Positions 3,602 through 61,208 of a stretch of DNA of 64,000 bases are shown piece after piece; within the stretch, counting starts at the first letter, position 1; every line of letters begins with the position of its first letter. A program made the translations under genes and the position numbers. Source of the DNA: Deuterostichococcus epilithicus (taxonomy: Eukaryota; Chlorophyta; Trebouxiophyceae; Prasiolales; Stichococcaceae); assembly GCA_033439295.1 (NCBI GenBank), contig JAVTLE010000005.1, forward strand, positions 1,910,501 through 1,974,500, in the 5' to 3' direction. The notes under the pieces were generated by a model. The model saw only the letters and a list, made by a program, of their open reading frames with translations, did not search any database and had not been told where the DNA came from.

Positions 3602-4270
3602 ATGACAGGCACCAAGATTGTTCTGCTCGTCGCGCTGCTTGCGCTGTGCACGTCAAGCGCGCTGGACACAGGTGAAAACCAGCACATCTCGGCAGCATTC
3701 ATGCACGCACAAAATTAGCCCAACGGCCCTTCATATCGGCCCTGCATGATGCATGATGTTGGCAAAGTTATCCACACATGTTGCGCACACAAGTAATGAC
3801 CGTCTGCCGTGTCATGATGCCGCAGTGCCACTTACACTCCTGACAGCATGACCCCGTTTACTCTCCAAAGTTGGCTCTCGTCCCACAAGGTGCTATCCAA
3901 TGCACTTGCAGACCATCTGATCCAGCAGCAGCAAGGGATTGCGGCGCCGAACGCGTGCGAGGCCGGCAGTGAGGGCGACTGCCTTGGGCAGGCAGGCTGC
4001 GCGTGGTGCAGCTCTGCCGCAGTCGGCGACGCCTGCTACACCCAGGTGCGCAGACGTGCAGAGCCCTTCAATGCAGGAGTGCTGCACTGCTAGTTTGTAC
4101 ACTCCTCAGACGCAAGGACTGCCTAACCTGCTTCACTGCTCGCCCACATCGCCGTGATGGCTGTGCAGGAGGACGCGGCCAAGTTGCCGGCCGCGATCTT
4201 TTCGTGCAAGACCGCCAGTCTGGCCGCTCTCGGCCGCCTGTCCAGTGACTTGTCGGTGTACCAGCACTAG
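3602..4270 (+). CDS. Small secreted cysteine-rich protein, unknown function
   Basis: Three exons (3602-3671, 3912-4045, 4169-4270) join in phase to about 101 residues. The start at 3602 opens a textbook signal peptide: MTGTK, then the hydrophobic run IVLLVALLALCTSSA. The mature part is short and carries six cysteines spaced C-x7-C-x5-C-x2-C-x8-C-x15-C, including the CAWC pair, followed by KLPAAIFSC and an Ala/Leu-rich tail ending YQH. There is no membrane anchor or ER-retention signal, so export or delivery to a lumenal compartment is likely. The CxWC spacing recalls PSI-type disulfide domains, but that is only a resemblance. I do not recognise a named family. Exon borders are good GT-AG sites and all phases match, which supports a real gene despite its size. 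Confidence 0.65.
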
Positions 4271-4308
4271 ACGGACACTACACGCAGCTGCCAGCAGCAG
4301 AGCAGCAC

Positions 4309-6012
4309 ATGACCGACAGGGCCCTCGGATCCAGCCCCGCCGTTTCGTCGGCCAAGAAGCGCCGACTGAATGCACTCCAGCAGCGCCTCGGCAGCAAGCA
4401 AGAGTCGCCGAATTTGCGCACAGAGGGTGAGCCGCCATCACCAGCGGATGTGAGCAGGCTACTTCGGTGCTGCGATGGCTGGCAGGGTGCCTTACTGAAC
4501 ATGTGCGGAACGTCTAGAGAGACGCAGCCTGTCTCCTCGTCCTTGCAGAGGATTTGCGAGGCAGCTCCGGCAAGAAGCCGAGGGTGACGACACCCAAACA
4601 GCAGCCTCACAAACCTGCTTTACCAGCGGGCTTCCCATACGAGCCGCTGGATTGCACGCGCTTCAGCAACCCGGTGGCCGGGCGGCTCGAGGTTGGCATT
4701 CGTTCGTTCGTTCGTTCGTTCGTTCGTTCGTTCGTTCGTTCGTTCGTTCGTTCGTTCGTTCGTTCGTTCGTTCGTTCGTTCGTTCTGTCATGCGAGCCAG
4801 TCGTACAGAGTGAAGTGCTGTTCACTGTGTGCCTGGCAACATTGCGTGTGGGGAGCTCGGGAACCTCTGACATTGTCATCTGATAACGCCCGCGCAGAAG
4901 CCAGCGAGTGACAAGAACGCCGCCGCCGCATTTCTGAACCAGCTGCTGGCAAACACAGCGGGCGCCGGCAGCGGGCAGCAGACCGTCAAGCAGAAGGTGA
5001 ACACGGTGCTTTCACGGTCAGTTTGCAGCAACAGACCCGAAAGCGCATGCTTGAAAGCCGTGGTGGCCCTGCTGACAAGCCTCCGCACGTCCAGTTCGTT
5101 GTAGCACACAACATGTCGGCGGGACACATCCTCCTGCAATTCGTGGCGACGCTCAACGCGTCTTTGTCGAAACGAACAGGTGCAGGACCGGGTCCTGCAG
5201 CTGGACAACCCCCCCAAGCCGGCCAAGGGGCCGCGGGGGCCTAGGCCGCGCCCGACCTTTGCAGCGTCCCGGCGCGCCAACTCCAAGGAGCTGTCTCGCA
5301 TCCCAACCGACCAGCGACGGTGCCGCATTGTTGATGTGTCACACTCCCGGCCTGCATCCGGCCTGCACTCAAGCTTCATGCTCCCCTGATATAAACAGGC
5401 AGGATGTATGCGGCACTCCTTGCAACACAGACCTACTTCCATCTCCGTCATGTGTGTTCAGATCCCATCCTTGCAGGTTGGTGTTCTCTCTGCTTGCTCA
5501 GGTACGAGCTGTATCAGCCGCTGAACAAGCTGTGGCAGGCGTATGTGTCGAAGCTGCTGCAGGCCCGCAATTTCGAGGAGCACCTCCTGACGGTGCGCAT
5601 TCTGTGCAGCCCCTCTTGCGCCTTTTATGGTGCAAATGTAAAGCAGTTTTGAGGTGCTTCCTGTCACTGTGAGGTACAAACCCAGAACCCCCTTCGTTGT
5701 CCTGCTTTGCAGGCGGATCTGCACGGGTGCCAGCTGAAAGTGCTGGCCAGCAAAATTGCGCGCCATGTGGGCAAGCAGGGCATCGTCATCCGGGTGTGTG
5801 CCACTTTCCCACAAGCTAGGTTCAAATGCGAGAATTCGGTTGTGCAGCAACATGAGCCGAACATATCCTGCCTGCAGGATGGGCAGCAGACTCTGATGGT
5901 GATAACGGCTGATAATCAGCTGCTGCGGCTTGCAAAGCAGGGCAGCAAGTTCGAGGTGCCGCTCTATGCTGCGCATGCCATGATCCTGAACGGGGATGCC
6001 ATGGCATCGTGA
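4309..6012 (+). CDS. POP4: Ribonuclease P/MRP protein subunit POP4 (Rpp29)
   Basis: Seven exons with consistent phases (4309-4426, 4549-4691, 4898-4996, 5180-5319, 5502-5592, 5713-5793, 5878-6012) give 268 residues. The C-terminal ~110 residues are the Rpp29/Pop4 Sm-like barrel: LYQPLNKLWQAYVSKLL, then ADLHGCQLKVL, HVGKQGIVIR and ITADNQLLRLAKQGSKFEV. This matches the family order W-x-Y, DLHGA, G-x-x-GIV and the final K-x-GS-x-F strand. The basic, low-complexity N-terminus is typical of eukaryotic members. The protein is a core subunit of nuclear RNase P (tRNA 5' maturation) and RNase MRP. It starts only 38 bp after the stop of the secreted-protein gene, so the two may share regulation or overlap in UTRs. 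Intron 2 carries a long TTCG microsatellite. Confidence 0.88.
4699..4785 (+). repeat. (TTCG)n microsatellite, ~21 units
   Basis: An uninterrupted TTCG tetranucleotide tract of about 87 bp lies in the second intron of the POP4 gene, beginning 7 bp after the 5' splice site. It is open in several frames on both strands and would translate to a repeated FVRS on the plus strand, but it lies between two well-supported exons and is not coding. Confidence 0.95.
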
Positions 6013-52558: not shown

Positions 52559-52824
52559 TTGGGGGTGGTGGAGCGTGAAAAGTGAAAGAACCTTTGACCG
52601 GAAGGTTGGTTGTGAAAGTGGAATTAAATCCACTTATATACACAACCAAGAGATGATGGGGAGTGTCACCCGAAGGTGATCGACAGCGATGGGTGATTGC
52701 CAAAGCAATGCGAAAGCAGGGCAGTCATATGTATGACTATGACCCAATTCACTCCTTTTTTTTGTCCGCATGAGTCGTGAATCGAACTCGCGACCTCATG
52801 GGTATTTTTCCGTTTTCCAACCAC
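52559..52824 (-). repeat. Hairpin-rich ~266-bp repeat, copy 1 (SINE-like?)
   Basis: Runs from TTGGGGGTGGTGG to TTTTCCAACCAC and matches the copies at 55493 and 57893 over its whole length. It interrupts LINE coding sequence after CCCCGGC. Read on the minus strand it would form C(UUCG)G-capped stems (TCACC/GGTGA at 52666-52679 and ATTGC/GCAAT just after). A box-B-like GAGTTCGATTC lies near its right-hand end. It carries no ORF. The strand given is the one on which the box B and UUCG loops read correctly. Confidence 0.75.
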
Positions 52825-52864
52825 TTGGGGGTGGTGGAGCGTGAAAAGTGAAAGAACCTTTGAC
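52825..52864 (-). repeat. Partial second unit of the hairpin-rich repeat
   Basis: The first 40 bp of the same repeat (TTGGGGGTGGTGG to CCTTTGAC) follow directly on the complete unit in the same orientation, after which the LINE resumes with GGTTGAACAAC, where intact copies read GGCTGAACAAC. This makes a 1.15-unit tandem. Confidence 0.8.
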
Positions 52865-52951: not shown

Positions 52952-53393
52952 TGGAGCGGCTAGCTCAGATGCCGGGGGCACTTTAGGCATGTTGCGCAGT
53001 CAGACATCCCGCATCCTTGGCAGCGGGAGGTTAGGCTTAGCAGGTGTTTTTCAGTCCTTGGCTTTTGTGTTTGGTCTGCTTCCACCAGCATGCAGGGCGC
53101 CTCACGGCGTTTCCGGTCCCAGCGAGCCAGAGAGCTCGGCGCCTTGTGCGCAACTGGTCCTGTATGTCTGCGCGGGGTTTACTGGGTTTACCCGCGGGTG
53201 CTGTGGCACATGACTCTATGACTGGACATGGTTGCCGATGTCGTTTTGGTCTGCTCGACGCCCTTTCCGTTTGTTCCCTCAGCTTGTCGCTTGCTGCTGC
53301 GCATTCCGATTGCCTTCGGGCCTGTGCTATAGTCAGCCACTTGACTGCACAGTACGTAACCAAGTCCAGTCCAGTCCAGTCGAAGCACCTCGA
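52952..53393 (+). mobile_element. LINE 3' UTR fragment with altered tail
   Basis: About 440 bp of LINE 3' UTR in plus orientation, from GAGCGGCTAGCTCAG to a tail in which CCAAGTCC has become repeated CCAGT. It separates two minus-strand LINE pieces that would otherwise belong to one copy (51868-52951 and 53394-54660). Confidence 0.8.
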
Positions 53394-54660
53394 TGGGAGC
53401 GGACATGTAGGTGAGCTGTGGCGCCGCCACCGCGCCGCGCGCGGTGGTGTACACCACCACCTTCGTCTTCTTGCCGTTGACGGTGAGCCGCCAGCGCTTG
53501 CTGTAGGCCTGCAAGAGGTCCAACTGCGCCTGCAGGCCGGCGACGGTGGTGGACACCAGTGCCAGGTCGTCCGCGTAGAAGAGTGCCGGCGTCTGCACGC
53601 CGGACAGTGTGGGAAGGGCGAAGCCGGCGGAGCCGGCTTCGAGCTCAGCCTGGAAGTCATCAATGAAGATGCCTAACAGGGTTGGAGAAAGTGGGCAGCC
53701 CTGTTTCACACCTAGCAGGGAATCGAACGTGGCAGACATGCCGTCAGCAAACTGCACCCCCATGGGCACCTCCGCATACAAAGCCTGCACCGCCCGCAAG
53801 AAGTCCCCATGCACCCCGATGCGTTGCAGTTTGTGCCACAGCAGGTCACGTGGAATGGTGTCATATGCTTTTTTGAAGTCAACGTAACATACATACAGCG
53901 GCTTTTTGTCTGCACGGGCTCGCTCAATGAGCGTGCGGAGCACAAACACCTGGTCAGTGGTGCGGTGGTCCCTCCGGAAGCCAGCCTGTCCGCGGGCACG
54001 CAGCCCGTGGCGCTCGGTCCACTCCATGAGCCTCTCGTTGAGCATCGCTGCGTACAGCTTTGCTAAAAGAGAGCCCACCGCGATGCCGCGGTAGTTGCCA
54101 GGGTCAATAACGTCGCCACCCTTGTGGATGGGGGTGATGCCGCAAAGCGCCCAAGCGCGCGGCAGCGCCCCCACCCTCTGGCAAGCATTGAAGACGGCAG
54201 CAAGACACGGCGCGAGCTCAGCAGCAGCAACAGAGAGGGCATCAAGCTTAAGCACACCCACAGTTGACTTGCCACCATGCAGGGACTCAATGCCCTTGGT
54301 GACAGAGGCACCTGTGAACTGCACATTCAACTCGGAACCGTCTGCGGCTGGTGGCGCGGCGCCGGCGTCGGCTGTCGGGTCCTCTTGCACATCAGAAGGG
54401 ATGACGGGCTGCTGCCCCAGCAGATCACGAAAGTAGTCAGCCATGGCAGCATCAGGCACAGCGCAGACACGCTTCTTGGCAACTTTGAATTTGCCCCAAA
54501 AGCGTGCCGGGTTGGCCTGGGCCAGAGTGAGGAGGGCGATGGCCTGGCTGCGCGTCCAGCGGCTCAGCTTGCGCCGCAGCGCGCGCTGGTACTCAGCGCG
54601 CGCCGTGCGAGCCGCGTGCGAACGCGGATCGCTGCGCATGGCCTGCCACCCGTCACCTGA
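53394..54660 (-). mobile_element. LINE reverse-transcriptase segment, inverted
   Basis: An uninterrupted frame on the minus strand codes the pre-RT linker (RSQAIALLTLAQANPARFWG) and most of a non-LTR reverse transcriptase: GNYRGIAVGSLLAKLYAAML, GLRARGQAGFRRDHRTTDQ, YVDFKKAYDTIPRDLLW, GVKQGCPLSPTL and the catalytic FYADDLALV. It ends abruptly at PIEVL, where the plus-strand tail piece begins. Its 5' end is cut by the minisatellite at about 54660. No endonuclease is attached. About 1.1 kb that should link it to the zinc-knuckle piece at 52951 is missing. Confidence 0.88.
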
Positions 54661-55895
54661 CGCTTACCACCTGCCACCTGCCACCCGCCACCTGCCACCT
54701 GCCACCATCTTCTTTACTAACTTGCCACCTGCCGCCTGCCGCCGCCACCTGCCACTTGCCACCTGCCGCCTACCACCTGCCACCTGCTTCTTTGTTGGCT
54801 TGCCACCCAGCACCCACCGCCCGTTACCCGCCGCCATCCGCCACCCGCCACCCGCCACCGCCACCCGCCGCAGCCCACCACCCGGCACTCCCCACCATCC
54901 ACAGCTCACNGCCACTTGCCGCCGCCACCTGCCACCTGCCACCTGCCGCCTACCACCTGCCACCTGCTTCTTTGTTGGCTTGCCACCCGACACCCACCGC
55001 CCGTCACCCGCCGTCATCCGCCACCCGCCACCCGCCACTTGCCGCAGCCCACAACCCGGCACTCCCCACCATCCACAGCTCACCGCCACTTGCCGCCGCC
55101 ACCTGCCTACCTCCTGCCTACCACCTGCCACCTGCTTCTTTGTTGGCTTGCCACCCAGCACCCACCGCCCGTTACCCGCCGCCACCCGCCCACCGCCACC
55201 CGCCGCAGCCCACCACCCGGCACTCCCCACCATCCACCGCTCACCGCCACCTGCCGCCGCCACCTGCCACTTGCCACCTGCCGCCTACCACCTGCCACCT
55301 GCTTCTTTGTTGGCTTGCCACCCGACACCCACCGCCCGNCACCCGCCGTCATCCGCAACCCGCCACCCGCCACAGCCCACCACCCGGCACTCCTCACCAT
55401 TCAGTGCTCACCGCCGCTTGCCGCCGCCACCTGCCACTAACCTGCCGCCTACCACCTGCCNCTTTGTTGGCTTGCCACCCAGCACCCACCACTTGGGGGT
55501 GGTGGAGCGTGAAAAGTGAAAGAACCTTTGACCGGAAGGTTGGTTGTGAAAGTGGAATTAAATCCACTTAAATACACAACCAAGAGATGGTGGAGTGTCA
55601 CCCGAAGGTGATCGATAGCGATGGGTGATTGCCGAAGCAATGCGAAAGCAGGGCAGTCATATGTATGACTATGACCCAATTCACTCCTTTTTTTTGTCCG
55701 CATGAGGAATCGAACTCGAGACCCCATGGGTATTTTTCCGTTTTCCAACCACCGCCTGTCACCCGCCGCCATCCGCCACCCGCCACCCGCCACCGCCACC
55801 CGCCGCAGCCCACCACCCGGCACTCCTCACCATCCACTGCTCACCGCCACTTGCCGCCGCCACCTGCCACCTGCCACCGTTGACCCTTCACCCGC
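54661..55895. repeat. Tandem minisatellite with ~167-180-bp higher-order units
   Basis: Built from short CCACCTGCCA/CCACCCGCCA motifs arranged in at least five longer units. Each unit contains the landmark CTGCTTCTTTGTTGGCTTGCC, found at 54784, 54964, 55132 and 55299 and in a damaged form near 55455, so the period is about 167-180 bp. Unresolved bases at 54910, 55339 and 55461 mark assembly difficulty. A hairpin-rich repeat is inserted at 55493-55752, after which the CCACC motifs resume. Long open frames on both strands arise from the composition and are not genes. Confidence 0.9.
55493..55752 (-). repeat. Hairpin-rich repeat, copy 2
   Basis: A ~260-bp copy of the repeat at 52559 and 57893, here inserted in the minisatellite. 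It keeps the 9-bp TTGGTTGTG/CACAACCAA stem and the two CGAA-loop hairpins (UUCG on the other strand). Its tRNA-like end is slightly shorter and on the minus strand reads GAGTTCGATTCC, close to the RNA polymerase III box B consensus. Confidence 0.8.
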
Positions 55896-56268
55896 CGCCC
55901 AGCACCCATCAAAAACACCACGCCCTCGTTACACAAGCAATCAACATACACGGCGAAGCGTCTGCCCATGCCCTGGAGTCCGGCAACGCGCTCAGCGGCA
56001 CGTTCGACAACCAACCAACAACAGGGATCCCTCAGCCGCAATTTTTCTGTGGCTTCTCGTTTCTTCTCAAATCTTGCACACGCATTCTGTACATATTCAT
56101 GAGCACACCCACCGTGATTGTGCACTGATTGCTCTTGCATCGCCAGCGTCAGCGATTTTCGGAACGTTAACAGCTGTCAGCAGATTTTTCGAAAGTTTCC
56201 GCGCTCTGCTCAGCTTGCGCTTACGCACAACGTCCTGATTGCTCCACGCTTGCTGCTGCACTTGCATC
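55896..56268 (+). other. AT-richer leader before the LINE/chimeric ORF
   Basis: About 370 bp that is clearly less GC-rich than its surroundings and unlike the minisatellite. It precedes the ATG at 56269 and could be a LINE 5' UTR or a captured host promoter/5' UTR. No repeat of it is seen elsewhere in the window. Confidence 0.35.
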
Positions 56269-57892
56269 ATGAGCACAGCCACGCGCTCACGCCGCCCTGA
56301 CACGCTTTCTGTGCAGCTTGTGGCTGACTGTCGCTTGGCCACGTCAGCAAGCACCAGTCGCACAGATCTGCAGCGGTTAGCCAAGAAATACTCTGTCTCC
56401 GCGCGTCCAGGCGCATCGGAGGAGACGATTCGGGAGCAGCTTCGTCGCCACTTTGCATCGTCTGGCGTGGAGACGACAGCAGCTCCGGCAGCGGCAACTG
56501 CAGCAGACCTGCCTTCCTTCCCTGCCCCTCATGCCAGTGACGCATCGTCATCCCTGTCCTGCGCGCCTGCATCGCAGCCCCCCACGGAGCCACAGCAACA
56601 GCCAGCCGCTCAGCAGCGGCTGCAGCACGCTTCGGAGCGGCGTGCCTCCGCATTGCAGAACCTGTCCGAGTCTAGCACGCACGTGAGTGGCTCCAGTTTG
56701 ACTACTTCTGACTACTTTCGTGATCTGCTGGGGCAGCAGCCCGTCATCCCTTCTGATGTGCAAGAGGACCCGACAGCCGACGCCGGCGCCGCGCCACCAG
56801 CCGCAGATGGTTCCGAGTTGAATGTGCAGTTCACAGGTGCCTCTGTCACCAAGGGCATTGAGTCCTTGCATGGTGGCAAGTCAACTGTGGGTGTGCTTAA
56901 GCTTGATGCTCTCTCTGTTGCTGCTGCTGAGCTCGCGCCGTGTCTTGCTGCCGTCTTCAATGCTTGCCAGAGGGTGGGGGCGCTGCCGCGCGCTTGGGCG
57001 CTTTGCGGTATCACCCCCATCCACAAGGGTGGCGACGTTACTGACCCTGGCAACTACCGCGGCATCGCGGTGGGCTCTCTTTTAGCAAAGCTGTACGCAG
57101 CGATGCTCAACGAGAGGCTCATGGAGTGGTCCGAGCGCCACGGGCTGCGTGCCCGCGGACAGGCTGGCTTCCGGAGGGACCACCGCACCACTGACCAGGT
57201 GTTTGTGCTCCGCACGCTCATTGAGCGAGCCCGTGCAGAAAAAAAGCCGCTGTATGTATGTTACGTTGACTTCAAAAAAGCATATGACACCATTCCACGT
57301 GACCTGCTGTGGCACAAACTGCAACGCATCGGGGTGCATGGGGACTTCTTGCGGGCGGTGCAGGCTTTGTATGCGGAGGTGCCCATGGGGGTGCAGTTTG
57401 CTGACGGCATGTCTGCCACGTTCGATTCCCTGCTAGGTGTGAAACAGGGCTGCCCACTTTCTCCAACCCTGTTTGGCATCTTCATTGATGACTTCCAGGC
57501 TGAGCTCGAAGCCGGCTCCGCCGGCTTCGCCCTTCCCACACTGTCCGGCGTGCAGACGCCGGCGCTCTTCTACGCGGACGACCTGGCACTGGTGTCCACC
57601 ACCGTCGCCGGCCTGCAGGCGCAGTTGGACCTCTTGCAGGCATACAGCAAACGCTGGCGGCTCACCGTCAACGTTAAGAAGACGAAGATGGTGGTTTACA
57701 CCACCGCACGCGGCGCGGTGGCGGCGCCACAGCTCACCTACATGTCCGCCCCCATCGAGGTGCTTGACACGTTCAGGTACCTGGGGGTTGACCTGCACAG
57801 CACGAAGCCATTTGCTTCGAGCGCAGCGGACCGGGCGGCGTCCGCCCGACGCGCCGCGCTCGCGCTGCATAATCGCTGTCGTGATCTCGGGC
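56269..57892 (+). CDS. Chimeric LINE ORF: SAP-like N-terminus joined to reverse transcriptase
   Basis: From the ATG at 56269 an open frame gives MSTATRSRRPDTLSVQL, then TDLQRLAKKYSVSARPGASE and TIREQLRRHFASSG, which has the look of a SAP-type DNA-binding helix pair, then a Ser/Ala/Gln-rich linker. At DYFRDLLGQQ (about 56710) it switches to the LINE frame and runs through the reverse-transcriptase core, including YVDFKKAYDTIPRDL and FYADDLALV. The linker and endonuclease that precede DYFRDLL in an intact LINE are absent, so this is an internal-deletion product. The frame ends a few codons into the repeat inserted at 57893. Whether the SAP-like part is the LINE's own ORF1 or a captured host exon is unclear. 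Confidence 0.6.
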
Positions 57893-58158
57893 TTGGGGGT
57901 GGTGGAGCGTGAAAAGTGAAAGAACCTTTGACCGGAAGGTTGGTTGTGAAAGTGGAATTAAATCCACTTATATACACAACCAAGAGATGAGGGGGAGTGT
58001 AACCCGAAGGTGATCGATAGCGATGGGTGATTGCCGAAGCAATGCGAAAGCAGGGCAGTCATATGTATGACTATGACCCAATTCACTCCTTTTTTTTGTC
58101 CGCATGAGTCGTGAATCGAACTCGCGACCTCATGGGTATTTTTCCGTTTTCCAACCAC
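57893..58158 (-). repeat. Hairpin-rich repeat, copy 3
   Basis: The clearest 266-bp copy, inserted in the LINE ORF; compared with the intact LINE at 61936-61950, five bases (TGCAT) are missing at the insertion point. Stems visible: AACCTT 57923-57928 with AAGGTT 57936-57941; TTGGTTGTG 57940-57948 with CACAACCAA 57975-57983, enclosing AAGTGGA/TCCACTT (57950-57969); ATTGC/GCAAT with a CGAA loop (58030-58043); and AGTCATA/TATGACT (58057-58072). Read on the minus strand the CGAA loops become C(UUCG)G. Box-B-like GAGTTCGATTC lies near 58120 on the minus strand. Confidence 0.8.
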
Positions 58159-59612
58159 GATCCTGCACTGCTCATGCATCTTTTTGACGCACTTGTGCGC
58201 CCGGTGATGCTGTACGGTGTGGAGACTTGGGGGCCTGGGGCGCTGTGTGGCAAGGCCAGCGGCATGGAGGCTTGTGAGAAAGTGCAGAGGAGCTTTTTGC
58301 GGGCTCTTCTTGGCGTGCGTGCAGGCACGCCCAAGGCGGCGCTACTCGGCGAGGCGGGCCGCTTTGAGGCGGCGCACACAGCAGTGACGCTGATCTGCCG
58401 CTTCTGGAACCGGCTGGTGGACATGCCTGACGCGCGGCTGACCAAGCAGGCGTTCCTCGAGAACGTCAGCATGGCCGGCCGCGGCGGCGGCATCCACTCG
58501 GCCTGTTGGGCTGCCCAGGTGGCCTCGTTCCTGGACTTCATGTCCCCCATTGTTGACGGTGTGCCGCAGCACATCGACCCTGACGCAGCCACGGCGGTGC
58601 TGCAGCGCCGACACTTTCAGTCGGTGAATGGCAGCGATGCCCGCAAGGTACGCGAGTGGCTGCAGATTCGGGGCCCTTTGGCTTTTGGTGCCTACGAACC
58701 AGCTATGTATCTGCAGGCGGTGGCCTCCAGGACCGGCCGCGTTCGGCTGGCGCAGTTTCGCACCGGCTCCCATTGGCTGCGGGTGGAGACAGGGCGGTGG
58801 GCCGGCCTGCCGCGCGAGCAGCGCAGCTGTCAGCGCTGCGACAGCGGCGAGGTTGATGACGCAGAGCACATGCTCTGGGGGTGTTCTGCTCTGCTAGACC
58901 AGCGTCTCCAGCACGTGGAGCTGTTCAGCCGGGGCGACGCCACAGTCGAGGCGTTCATGCAGCAGGACCCTGCCAGCTTGGGGGTGTTTCTGCGGCATTG
59001 CGCCGATCGCTGCGCGGAGCTAGAGGGCTGGGGCTCGAGCTCTCAATGAGGCCTATCATCATCATGCTTTCGAGGCAGAGGGCACCTTGCTGTCGGGACT
59101 TTCGGGGCCGGCATGGGGGTAGATGGCAATTTCATTCTCTGTGTTTGGGTTTCGGAGTGGTGTGCCATAGCGCTCGCGGAATCCTGCGATGGGAGCGGCT
59201 AGCTCAGATGCCGGGGGCACTTTAGGCATGTTGCGCAGTCAGACATCCCGTAGCCTTGGCAGGGGGAGGTTAGGCTTAGCAGGTGTTTTTCAGTCCTTGG
59301 CTGTTGTGTTTGGTCTGCTTCCACCAGCATGCAGGGCGCCTCACGGCGTTTCCAGTCCAAGCGAGCCAGAGAGCTCGGCGCTTTGCGCGCAACTGGCCAT
59401 GTATGTCTGCGCGGGGTTTACTGGGTTTACCCGCGGGTGCTCTGGCACATGACTCTATGGACATGGTTGCCGATGTCGTTTTGACCTGCTCGACGCCCTT
59501 TCCGTTTGTTCCCTCAGCATGTCGCTTGCTGTTGCGCATTCCGACCGCCTTCGGGCCTGTGCTATAGTCAGCCACTTGACTGCACAGTATGTAACCAAGT
59601 CCAAGTCCAAGT
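58159..59612 (+). mobile_element. LINE ORF2 C-terminus and 3' UTR
   Basis: Continuation of the LINE copy interrupted at 57893. It codes DPALLMHLFDALVRP to the stop at 59047-59049, including the zinc knuckle CQRCDSGEVDDAEHMLWGC (C-x2-C-x8-H-x4-C by position). A ~560-bp 3' UTR ends in CCAAGTCCAAGTCCAAGT at 59612. The next element starts at the following base. Confidence 0.88.
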
Positions 59613-60816: not shown

Positions 60817-60859
60817 GGGTGTTGGGGCCGGGCTGCGCCCGGCGCCGTCCGGTCCCCTC

Positions 60860-61208
60860 ACAGCTCATTGTCCGTGTTGCACCTGAACGTCCATGGCTCT
60901 CAAGAAATGCGTTTGCTATCACGCAGGCCATCCAGGGTGCGGCCTACGATGTTCTGGTGTTCACGGAGACGTGGCTGCGGGAGGGCGCTGACGCGCCGGA
61001 GCTGGCAGGCTACACCGCCATCCTCAATCTGCCTCGGAGCCGAAAGCTTCAGCACGGCGGCACGCGAGGCGGCATCGCCGTCTACGTCGCCGACGCGCTG
61101 GCACTAAAGGTCACGGTGCTGTCGACAGGGCCACAGGGCTGCTATGCCTTACTGCGTCTTGATGGCTGCATCGGGCAGGAGGAGGATGCATACATGTTTG
61201 CATGCTAG
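60860..61208 (+). pseudogene. LINE APE-type endonuclease fragment
   Basis: Two adjacent frames give LSVLHLNVHGSQ and then AAYDVLVFTETWLREGAD, GGTRGGIAVYVADAL and GCYALLRLDG. The LN-x-H-G start, the catalytic FTETWL and the RGGIAVYV motif identify an exonuclease-endonuclease-phosphatase fold. A one-frame shift separates the first motif from the rest, and a stop follows DAYMFAC where the family would continue with YIPP. After about 85 further bases the sequence jumps into the reverse transcriptase. Confidence 0.7.

Follow-up and report, generated by a model that had tools for sequence, protein, structure and literature searches.

What kind of element is the short, hairpin-rich, non-coding unit that occurs repeatedly in a 64,000-nt stretch of the Deuterostichococcus epilithicus genome (hereafter the window), which of its strands is copied, and by what enzyme? 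Here, we argue, with a probability of roughly 0.8, that the unit is a SINE whose minus-strand RNA is copied by LINE-type reverse transcription with template jumps, the resident Zepp-like LINE being the likeliest source of the enzyme. The unit has those defining features of SINEs that can be tested clearly: it is short and non-autonomous, it is copied from RNA, and it is accompanied by target duplications.

An initial annotation, made from the window sequence, had described three units and a fragment (40 nt), all of which were found on the plus strand at the positions listed below, each unit being bounded by TTGGGGGTGG and CCAACCAC as had been claimed. The strand given for the units and their parts is that of the RNA.

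57893..58158, minus (RNA strand): full unit, probable SINE of sub-family A, within a LINE ORF (sequence and truncation comparison)
58113..58131, minus: tRNA T-arm-like stretch GAGGTCGCGAGTTCGATTC, RNA nt 28-46 (identity to tRNA gene L104)
58113-58121, minus: B-box-like GTTCGATTC inside the T-arm-like stretch
57893..57907, minus: RNA 3' terminus CTCCACCACCCCCAA; adding base 57892 gives ...CCCCCAAG
52559..52824, minus: full unit, probable SINE of sub-family A (sequence comparison)
52825..52864, minus: second, truncated unit, unit positions 1-40, which are the RNA 3' end; abuts the RNA 5' end of the first unit
55493..55752, minus: full unit, probable SINE of sub-family B, 260 nt, within a CCACCTGCC-type minisatellite (sequence comparison)
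56239..57912, plus: LINE ORF (non-LTR reverse transcriptase; RVT_1, E 2.1e-30) cut by the 57893 unit; candidate partner family
59578..59611, plus: LINE 3' end ...GTATGTAACCAAGTCCAAGTCCAAG with (TCCAAG)n tail
60819..61208, plus: LINE endonuclease piece, Exo_endo_phos (E 0.0014; 18.9 bits, under the Pfam cut-off of 24.5)

The 57893 and 52559 units are 98.5% identical, and the 260-nt unit at 55493 belongs to a different sub-family. That the unit is non-coding was borne out, as the 57893 copy splits the LINE ORF, of which an uninterrupted counterpart exists in locus L079. The region 54640-55900 is a CCACCTGCC/CCACCCGCC minisatellite with strong GC skew, split by the 55493 copy.

For the distribution of the unit, the whole assembly was searched (46.8 Mb, 21 contigs, designated C1 to C21), in which RbcS is nuclear, in two pieces and on a large contig, a feature that, with TTTAGGG telomeres, places the host in the green lineage. 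With 40 of 68 candidates scored, there were at least 47 matches, at least 40 of them long and at least 7 short and directly after a long one. The count of three copies thus holds for the window and not for the genome, and the possibility that no copies exist beyond this island is ruled out. In all, near-full copies number about 40 in the genome, alongside many that are truncated. Searching with a diverged copy as query added three older members, 83-88% identical to the young units (C4:1209656, C9:537810 and C15:913216), and a long partial copy 98% identical to sub-family B that was not in the first unit listing (C4:1222819). The 39-row alignment A1, which includes two old copies and, among L032, L033 and L034, only L032, comprises two young sub-families, A (266 nt) and B (about 260 nt), and one old sub-family. 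The unit is accordingly short, 254-274 nt across the alignment, as well as non-autonomous and dispersed in at least 40 long matches. The flank and junction counts below refer to 39 near-full copies, from which L047 (201 nt) is excluded and in which L032, L033 and L034, having the same flanks, represent one duplicated locus counted three times.

The direction of copying was read from truncated copies in the window and loci L070-L089, a total of 244,711 bases in which the clusters were picked by SINE or LINE matches and taken whole. These bases hold 47 pieces, including 23 full units, 7 partial units joined to another unit's end and 3 internal pieces. Among the solitary pieces, 13 retain unit position 1-7 without the other end and one (L077) retains the other end only. 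Since the minus-strand RNA has its 3' end at unit position 1, the truncations lie on the RNA 5' side, with a polarity of 13:1 for the RNA 5' side against the RNA 3' side (two-sided p 0.0018), or 12:1 (p 0.0034) when a segment duplicated between L073 and L082 is counted once. Truncation on the 5' side is the pattern predicted for reverse transcription from the RNA 3' end. A further copy outside this count, L058, also lacks the unit start.

Because the insertions lie in near-identical LINE pieces, their empty sites can be read directly, and in the DNA compared an empty counterpart was found for 23 of the 39 near-full copies examined and for none of the other 16. The flanks overlap exactly by 4-7 bp in 13 of the 23 resolved sites (4 bp in four, 5 bp in five, 6 bp in one and 7 bp in three), 12 of them secure and one, L042, ambiguous, as expected of target duplications of variable length. 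These exact overlaps are upper bounds, and a tolerant comparison finds 3 bp or more in L014, L027 and L030 and 1 bp in L042, whose exact 5 bp overlaps the unit's own end; it also gives 6 bp for L044, a copy that exact comparison left without a resolved site. Other exact overlaps are 2 bp in L010, 37 bp in L036 and 56 bp in L009, the last of which was rejected as a target duplication, its right flank being identical to that of L042. Exact overlap is absent from 7 of the 23 resolved sites. Among these seven, the tolerant comparison finds 4 bp in L016, at most 1 bp in L022 and L023 and 2 bp in L025, while L011 has, by eye, about 4 bp with one mismatch, and a few target bases were lost in L017 and L048. 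The latter is the 57893 copy of the window, where the target lacks about 4-5 bp and there is no duplication. In the empty sites of L012, L013, L015, L019, L022, L042 and L043, the C or AC that precedes TTGGGG proves to be part of the insert, and the RNA therefore ends in ...CCCCCAAG(T). Truncation polarity, target duplications and junctions agree that the minus-strand RNA, favoured by the initial annotation, is the molecule copied.

The RNA 5' end of the unit points to the origin of its transcription. In sub-family A, AGGTCGCGAGTTCGA, which lies close to the RNA 5' end, matches a nuclear tRNA gene (L104; anticodon CAC by our own reading) at 15 of 15 nt and occupies the corresponding position in the T arm. 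The comparison set consisted of 15 distinct nuclear tRNA genes from 20 of 63 loci, all correctly oriented. On the RNA strand, the tRNA score is 15 for sub-family A, reached by 2 of 300 shuffles, and 12 for sub-family B, a weak resemblance reached by 23 of 300; on the plus strand it is 9 in both, reached by 288 of 300 shuffles of sub-family A. The candidate A box, TGGTTGGAAAACGG, is degenerate and a poor match to the consensus, ARAGORN reports no tRNA in the window, and the Rfam tRNA model does not match the unit. From these sequence features, we consider it likely that a tRNA-related head close to the RNA 5' end directs transcription by RNA polymerase III. The minus-strand RNA would start near GTGGTTGG and end in CCCCCAAG, and a TTTT whose end lies 19 nt short of the RNA 3' end could stop the polymerase early.

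The copies are concentrated in a way that links them to the LINE of the window. The 16-nt RNA 3' end, CACGCTCCACCACCCC, has 68 genome matches at up to one mismatch, 57 of them exact, and 64 of the 68 fall in one cluster per contig on 16 contigs (15 of 1.6-4.8 Mb, and C2 of 14.7 kb). Two of the four outside matches are a full copy at C14:1637920 and a truncated copy at C19:1066071; the remaining two, C3:1678764, which has no unit around it, and C5:2334983, are at chance level, as a reversed-pattern control also yields two matches. Of the 67 compared by wider match, 66 are SINE copies, and C3:1678764 is not. The LINE reverse transcriptase of the window has 73 genome matches, and all 66 of those with at least 65% identity lie within the SINE clusters on the same 16 contigs, as do, among the matches listed, 96 of 100 of the LINE 3' tail (112 exact matches in the genome). 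One LINE cluster with few copies elsewhere was consequently found on the 15 large contigs and C2; on C8, C16 (1.06 Mb) and C17, the searches with the unit, the 16-nt 3' end and the LINE reverse transcriptase gave no match. Contigs C20 and C21 are dense in tRNA genes and look like organelle genomes. As this layout is Zepp-like, resembling that in Coccomyxa and Chlamydomonas, the clusters probably represent centromeres. LINE 3' tails also form tandem arrays, at C6:338839-342932 (L080, L081) with a period of ~580 bases and at C15:906919-910038 with 404-472 bases.

The best PDB matches of the LINE ORF at 56239..57912 are R2 and LINE-1 ORF2p chains, and the LINE RNA 3' end reads GTATGTAACCAAG(TCCAAG)n. 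We infer from the shared clusters that the resident Zepp-like LINE mobilises the SINE, the sequence common to the 3' ends of the two being CCAAG, with nothing longer seen. This short match favours an alternative in which the unit is a SINE as proposed and was moved by another LINE, an unlikely but serious contender: it has to be set against the fact that both elements share their clusters on all 16 contigs, and no LINE sharing the SINE 3' end was found among the 67 compared of the 68 genome matches of the 16-nt sequence. Target overlaps of the LINE itself, obtained for 14 of 73 tails and ranging from -3 to 118, are unusable because of nesting. Two further features of the LINE are inverted copies in the window, 53383-54440 against 56708-57765, which are complementary at 98% over 1058 nt, and three LINE 3' tails spaced by 116 bases on the minus strand of L071 at about 4260-4530, which suggest that the LINE too makes tandem truncated copies.

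With the resident LINE as partner, the cycle of the SINE may be pictured as follows. RNA polymerase III would make the minus-strand RNA from the tRNA-related, B-box-bearing 5' head, a LINE endonuclease and reverse transcriptase would nick the target, and cDNA synthesis would begin at the RNA 3' end ...CACCCCCAAG, in the direction indicated by the truncation polarity. The number of G at the unit start differs among copies, as would result if the enzyme slipped on the run of C when copying begins. Once at the RNA 5' end, it would often continue on the 3' end of another SINE RNA, a jump to which the tandems point, and the cDNA end would be joined to the target, often with the 4-7 bp duplication found at the resolved sites. 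The enzyme would most likely come from the resident Zepp-like LINE, which shares the clusters with the SINE and has CCAAG at the end of its tail as well.

Among known systems, the closest is the tRNA-type SINE SINEX-3_CR of Chlamydomonas and its partner LINE L1-1_CR (PMC3747384), the latter since renamed ZeppL-1_cRei, with ZeppL clusters at the putative Chlamydomonas centromeres (PMC8226300). As in that pair, a SINE here stands beside a LINE that clusters at each putative centromere (PMC3747384, PMC8226300). SINEX-3_CR and L1-1_CR are very similar over ~80 nt of their 3' ends and both carry poly(A) (PMC3747384), whereas the ends here, CCCCCAAG and (TCCAAG)n, have five bases in common, so that the two systems are set apart by description. 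The nested LINEs in one cluster per chromosome also resemble Zepp of Coccomyxa subellipsoidea C-169, where such clusters are taken for centromeres and where, to compare by description, SINEs make up 8.8% in the repeat table (PMC3446292). Zepp differs in its poly(A) tail (a table note in PMC3747384), compared with (TCCAAG)n here, and C-169 has 53% G+C (PMC3446292), compared with 57-65% per 2 kb in the window. Short 3' repeats such as (CATA)n, (CAA)n and (ACAATG)n are known from other green-algal LINEs, and (TCCAAG)n is absent from the table of such tails in PMC3747384. In Chlorella, centromeres feature LINE/L1, LINE/RTE-X and Copia elements, and the account of them in PMC11005252 contains no word beginning with SINE. 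The literature searched yielded no description of this SINE family, nor of any SINE restricted to centromere clusters in algae, and a conserved 25-nt pattern was not found in viral contigs. The unit thus looks like a new SINE family of a known kind, with odd, telomere-containing insertion scars, and like a further green-algal case, after SINEX-3_CR, of a SINE tied to a Zepp-like LINE. Here, the SINE itself occupies the same single cluster per contig as the LINE and, if the clusters are centromeres, both members of the pair build them. The template jumps and telomere-containing scars are, moreover, open to base-by-base study through the empty sites.

Tandems are frequent at the RNA 5' junctions: a unit start follows directly after the unit end over at least 6 nt in 17 of the 39 near-full copies and over at least 12 nt in 12, the longest second-unit run being about 103 nt (L018), and the window fragment at 52825-52864 is one of these full-plus-partial tandems. 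Such tandems probably arise when the enzyme, having reached the 5' end of one SINE RNA, jumps to the 3' end of another. A circular, retrozyme-like RNA around which the reverse transcriptase travels more than once would produce them as well, the tandem junction being an RNA 5' end joined to an RNA 3' end, and two copies begin inside the unit and cross that junction (L058, positions 104-266 then 1-19; L077, 50-260 then 3-95). This reading is nevertheless very improbable, given that the self-cleaving motif characteristic of retrozymes was not found, with no match to a ribozyme family in Rfam up to E 10, that 22 of the 39 near-full copies lack an exact match to 6 nt of the unit start behind the unit end (L044 being a near match), and that TTTT, TATTTAG or telomere repeats occupy the same junction point in other copies.

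The telomere sequences at these junctions raise a question of their own within the SINE reading. The host telomere repeat is TTTAGGG, and TTTAGG or TTAGGGTT occurs within 30 nt of the unit end in 4 of the 39 copies (L013, L030, L035 and L043). With the patterns used, the 244,711 bases contain four telomere-like runs, three of which lie at a SINE cDNA 3' end in the sense of the telomere G strand: near L070:7442 (the L043 copy) and at L076:5059 (the L030 copy), both after a TTGGGG start, and at L076:2439, where a truncated SINE copy is followed by three TTTAGGG units. The fourth, near L071:5393, follows sequence that matches no SINE. Counting L013 and L035, telomere sequence is present at five different insertions in all. 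TTTAGGG repeats or a TATTTAGG scrap stand directly at SINE cDNA 3' ends (L035 is C10:1557646-1557904), and the clusters are far from contig ends. Because the junction windows, 30 nt at 46 ends, make up only about 0.3% of both strands, the coincidence of three of four runs with SINE ends is hardly chance, although it was assessed after it had been noticed, and we therefore retain, as a tentative and on balance doubtful idea, that SINE cDNA 3' ends acquire a cap from telomerase, or are lengthened with telomeric or telomerase RNA as template, ahead of joining to the target. A jump onto another SINE RNA would leave the cDNA ending in TTGGGG, which resembles a telomere primer, and TTTAGGG units would then follow in the right strand sense. 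If true, retroposition into the clusters would pass through an intermediate handled like a chromosome end; a jump onto telomeric RNA would leave a scar that looks the same. At LINE 5' junctions, which are unmapped in the 244,711 bases, no telomere run was noticed. Athena and Hebe of bdelloid rotifers are telomere-linked retroelements with ends joined to telomere repeats, unlike the present case, in which the repeats are at SINE cDNA 3' ends in clusters distant from contig ends.

The initial annotation took the density of stems to suggest selection on, or recent transcription of, a folded RNA. The 9-bp stem TTGGTTGTG/CACAACCAA with a 7-bp hairpin inside corresponds to helices 12 and 13 of the predicted fold, and the two minus-strand C(UUCG)G loops are present in the 57893 and 55493 copies, whereas one of them is UUUG in the 52559 copy. 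The minus strand folds better than 200 dinucleotide shuffles (z -4.85), as does the plus strand (z -4.51), and the stems are therefore beyond chance while folding gives no choice of strand. Strong folding could mean that selection maintains a gene for a structured, functional RNA in each cluster, such as a centromeric non-coding RNA, and the presence of one cluster per contig would suit such a gene. Compensatory change is almost absent, though: RNAalifold on 39 copies finds change on both sides in 1 of 70 pairs, in one sequence, and the minimum-energy fold of the 57893 copy in 0 of 83, with 97.7% of its paired cells paired and a covariation score also the same as in shuffles. Substitution is nearly equal in paired and unpaired columns, 37 young copies differing from the consensus in 104 of 5934 paired cells (1.75%) and 78 of 3592 unpaired cells (2.17%). 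In the old copies, 13 pairs are broken and 5 kept by one-sided change (L076), or 3 broken and 6 kept in this way (L086), and the A-U, G-U and G-C variation in columns 33-57 tracks the sub-families, amounting to at most one lineage-level change. Together with the empty counterparts of 23 of the 39 near-full copies, as for insertions, this makes a selected RNA gene a remote prospect. Independent mutation of the stems, named at the outset as the finding that would count against a conserved fold, is closely approached, and it is also expected when dead retroposon copies decay neutrally; in the master RNA, for which the copies are too similar to serve as a test, the fold may still matter. Of the first interpretation, the copied minus-strand RNA, its strong fold and its failure to match any family in Rfam consequently stand, and selection on the fold does not.

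Least probable of all is a non-autonomous DNA transposon, MITE- or Helitron-like, moved by cut-and-paste or rolling circle: rolling-circle copying past the end would also make full-plus-partial tandems, but the ends TTGGGGGTGG and CCAACCAC do not form an inverted pair, the duplications vary in length (4, 5, 6, 7 and 37 bp), the number of G varies at one end, the truncations are polarised 13:1, and the flanks are not the A and T between which Helitrons insert. A MITE was rejected for lack of terminal inverted repeats and of a target duplication of fixed length.

Finally, some copies are themselves composite. By eye in alignment A1, copies L014, L018, L020, L023, L027 and L041 are mosaics of sub-families A and B, which could be template switches between SINE RNAs, and copy L024 (C4:1214344-1214617) has an 11-nt duplication, CGCATTGCTTC, inside the unit, for which slippage of the enzyme is a possible cause.
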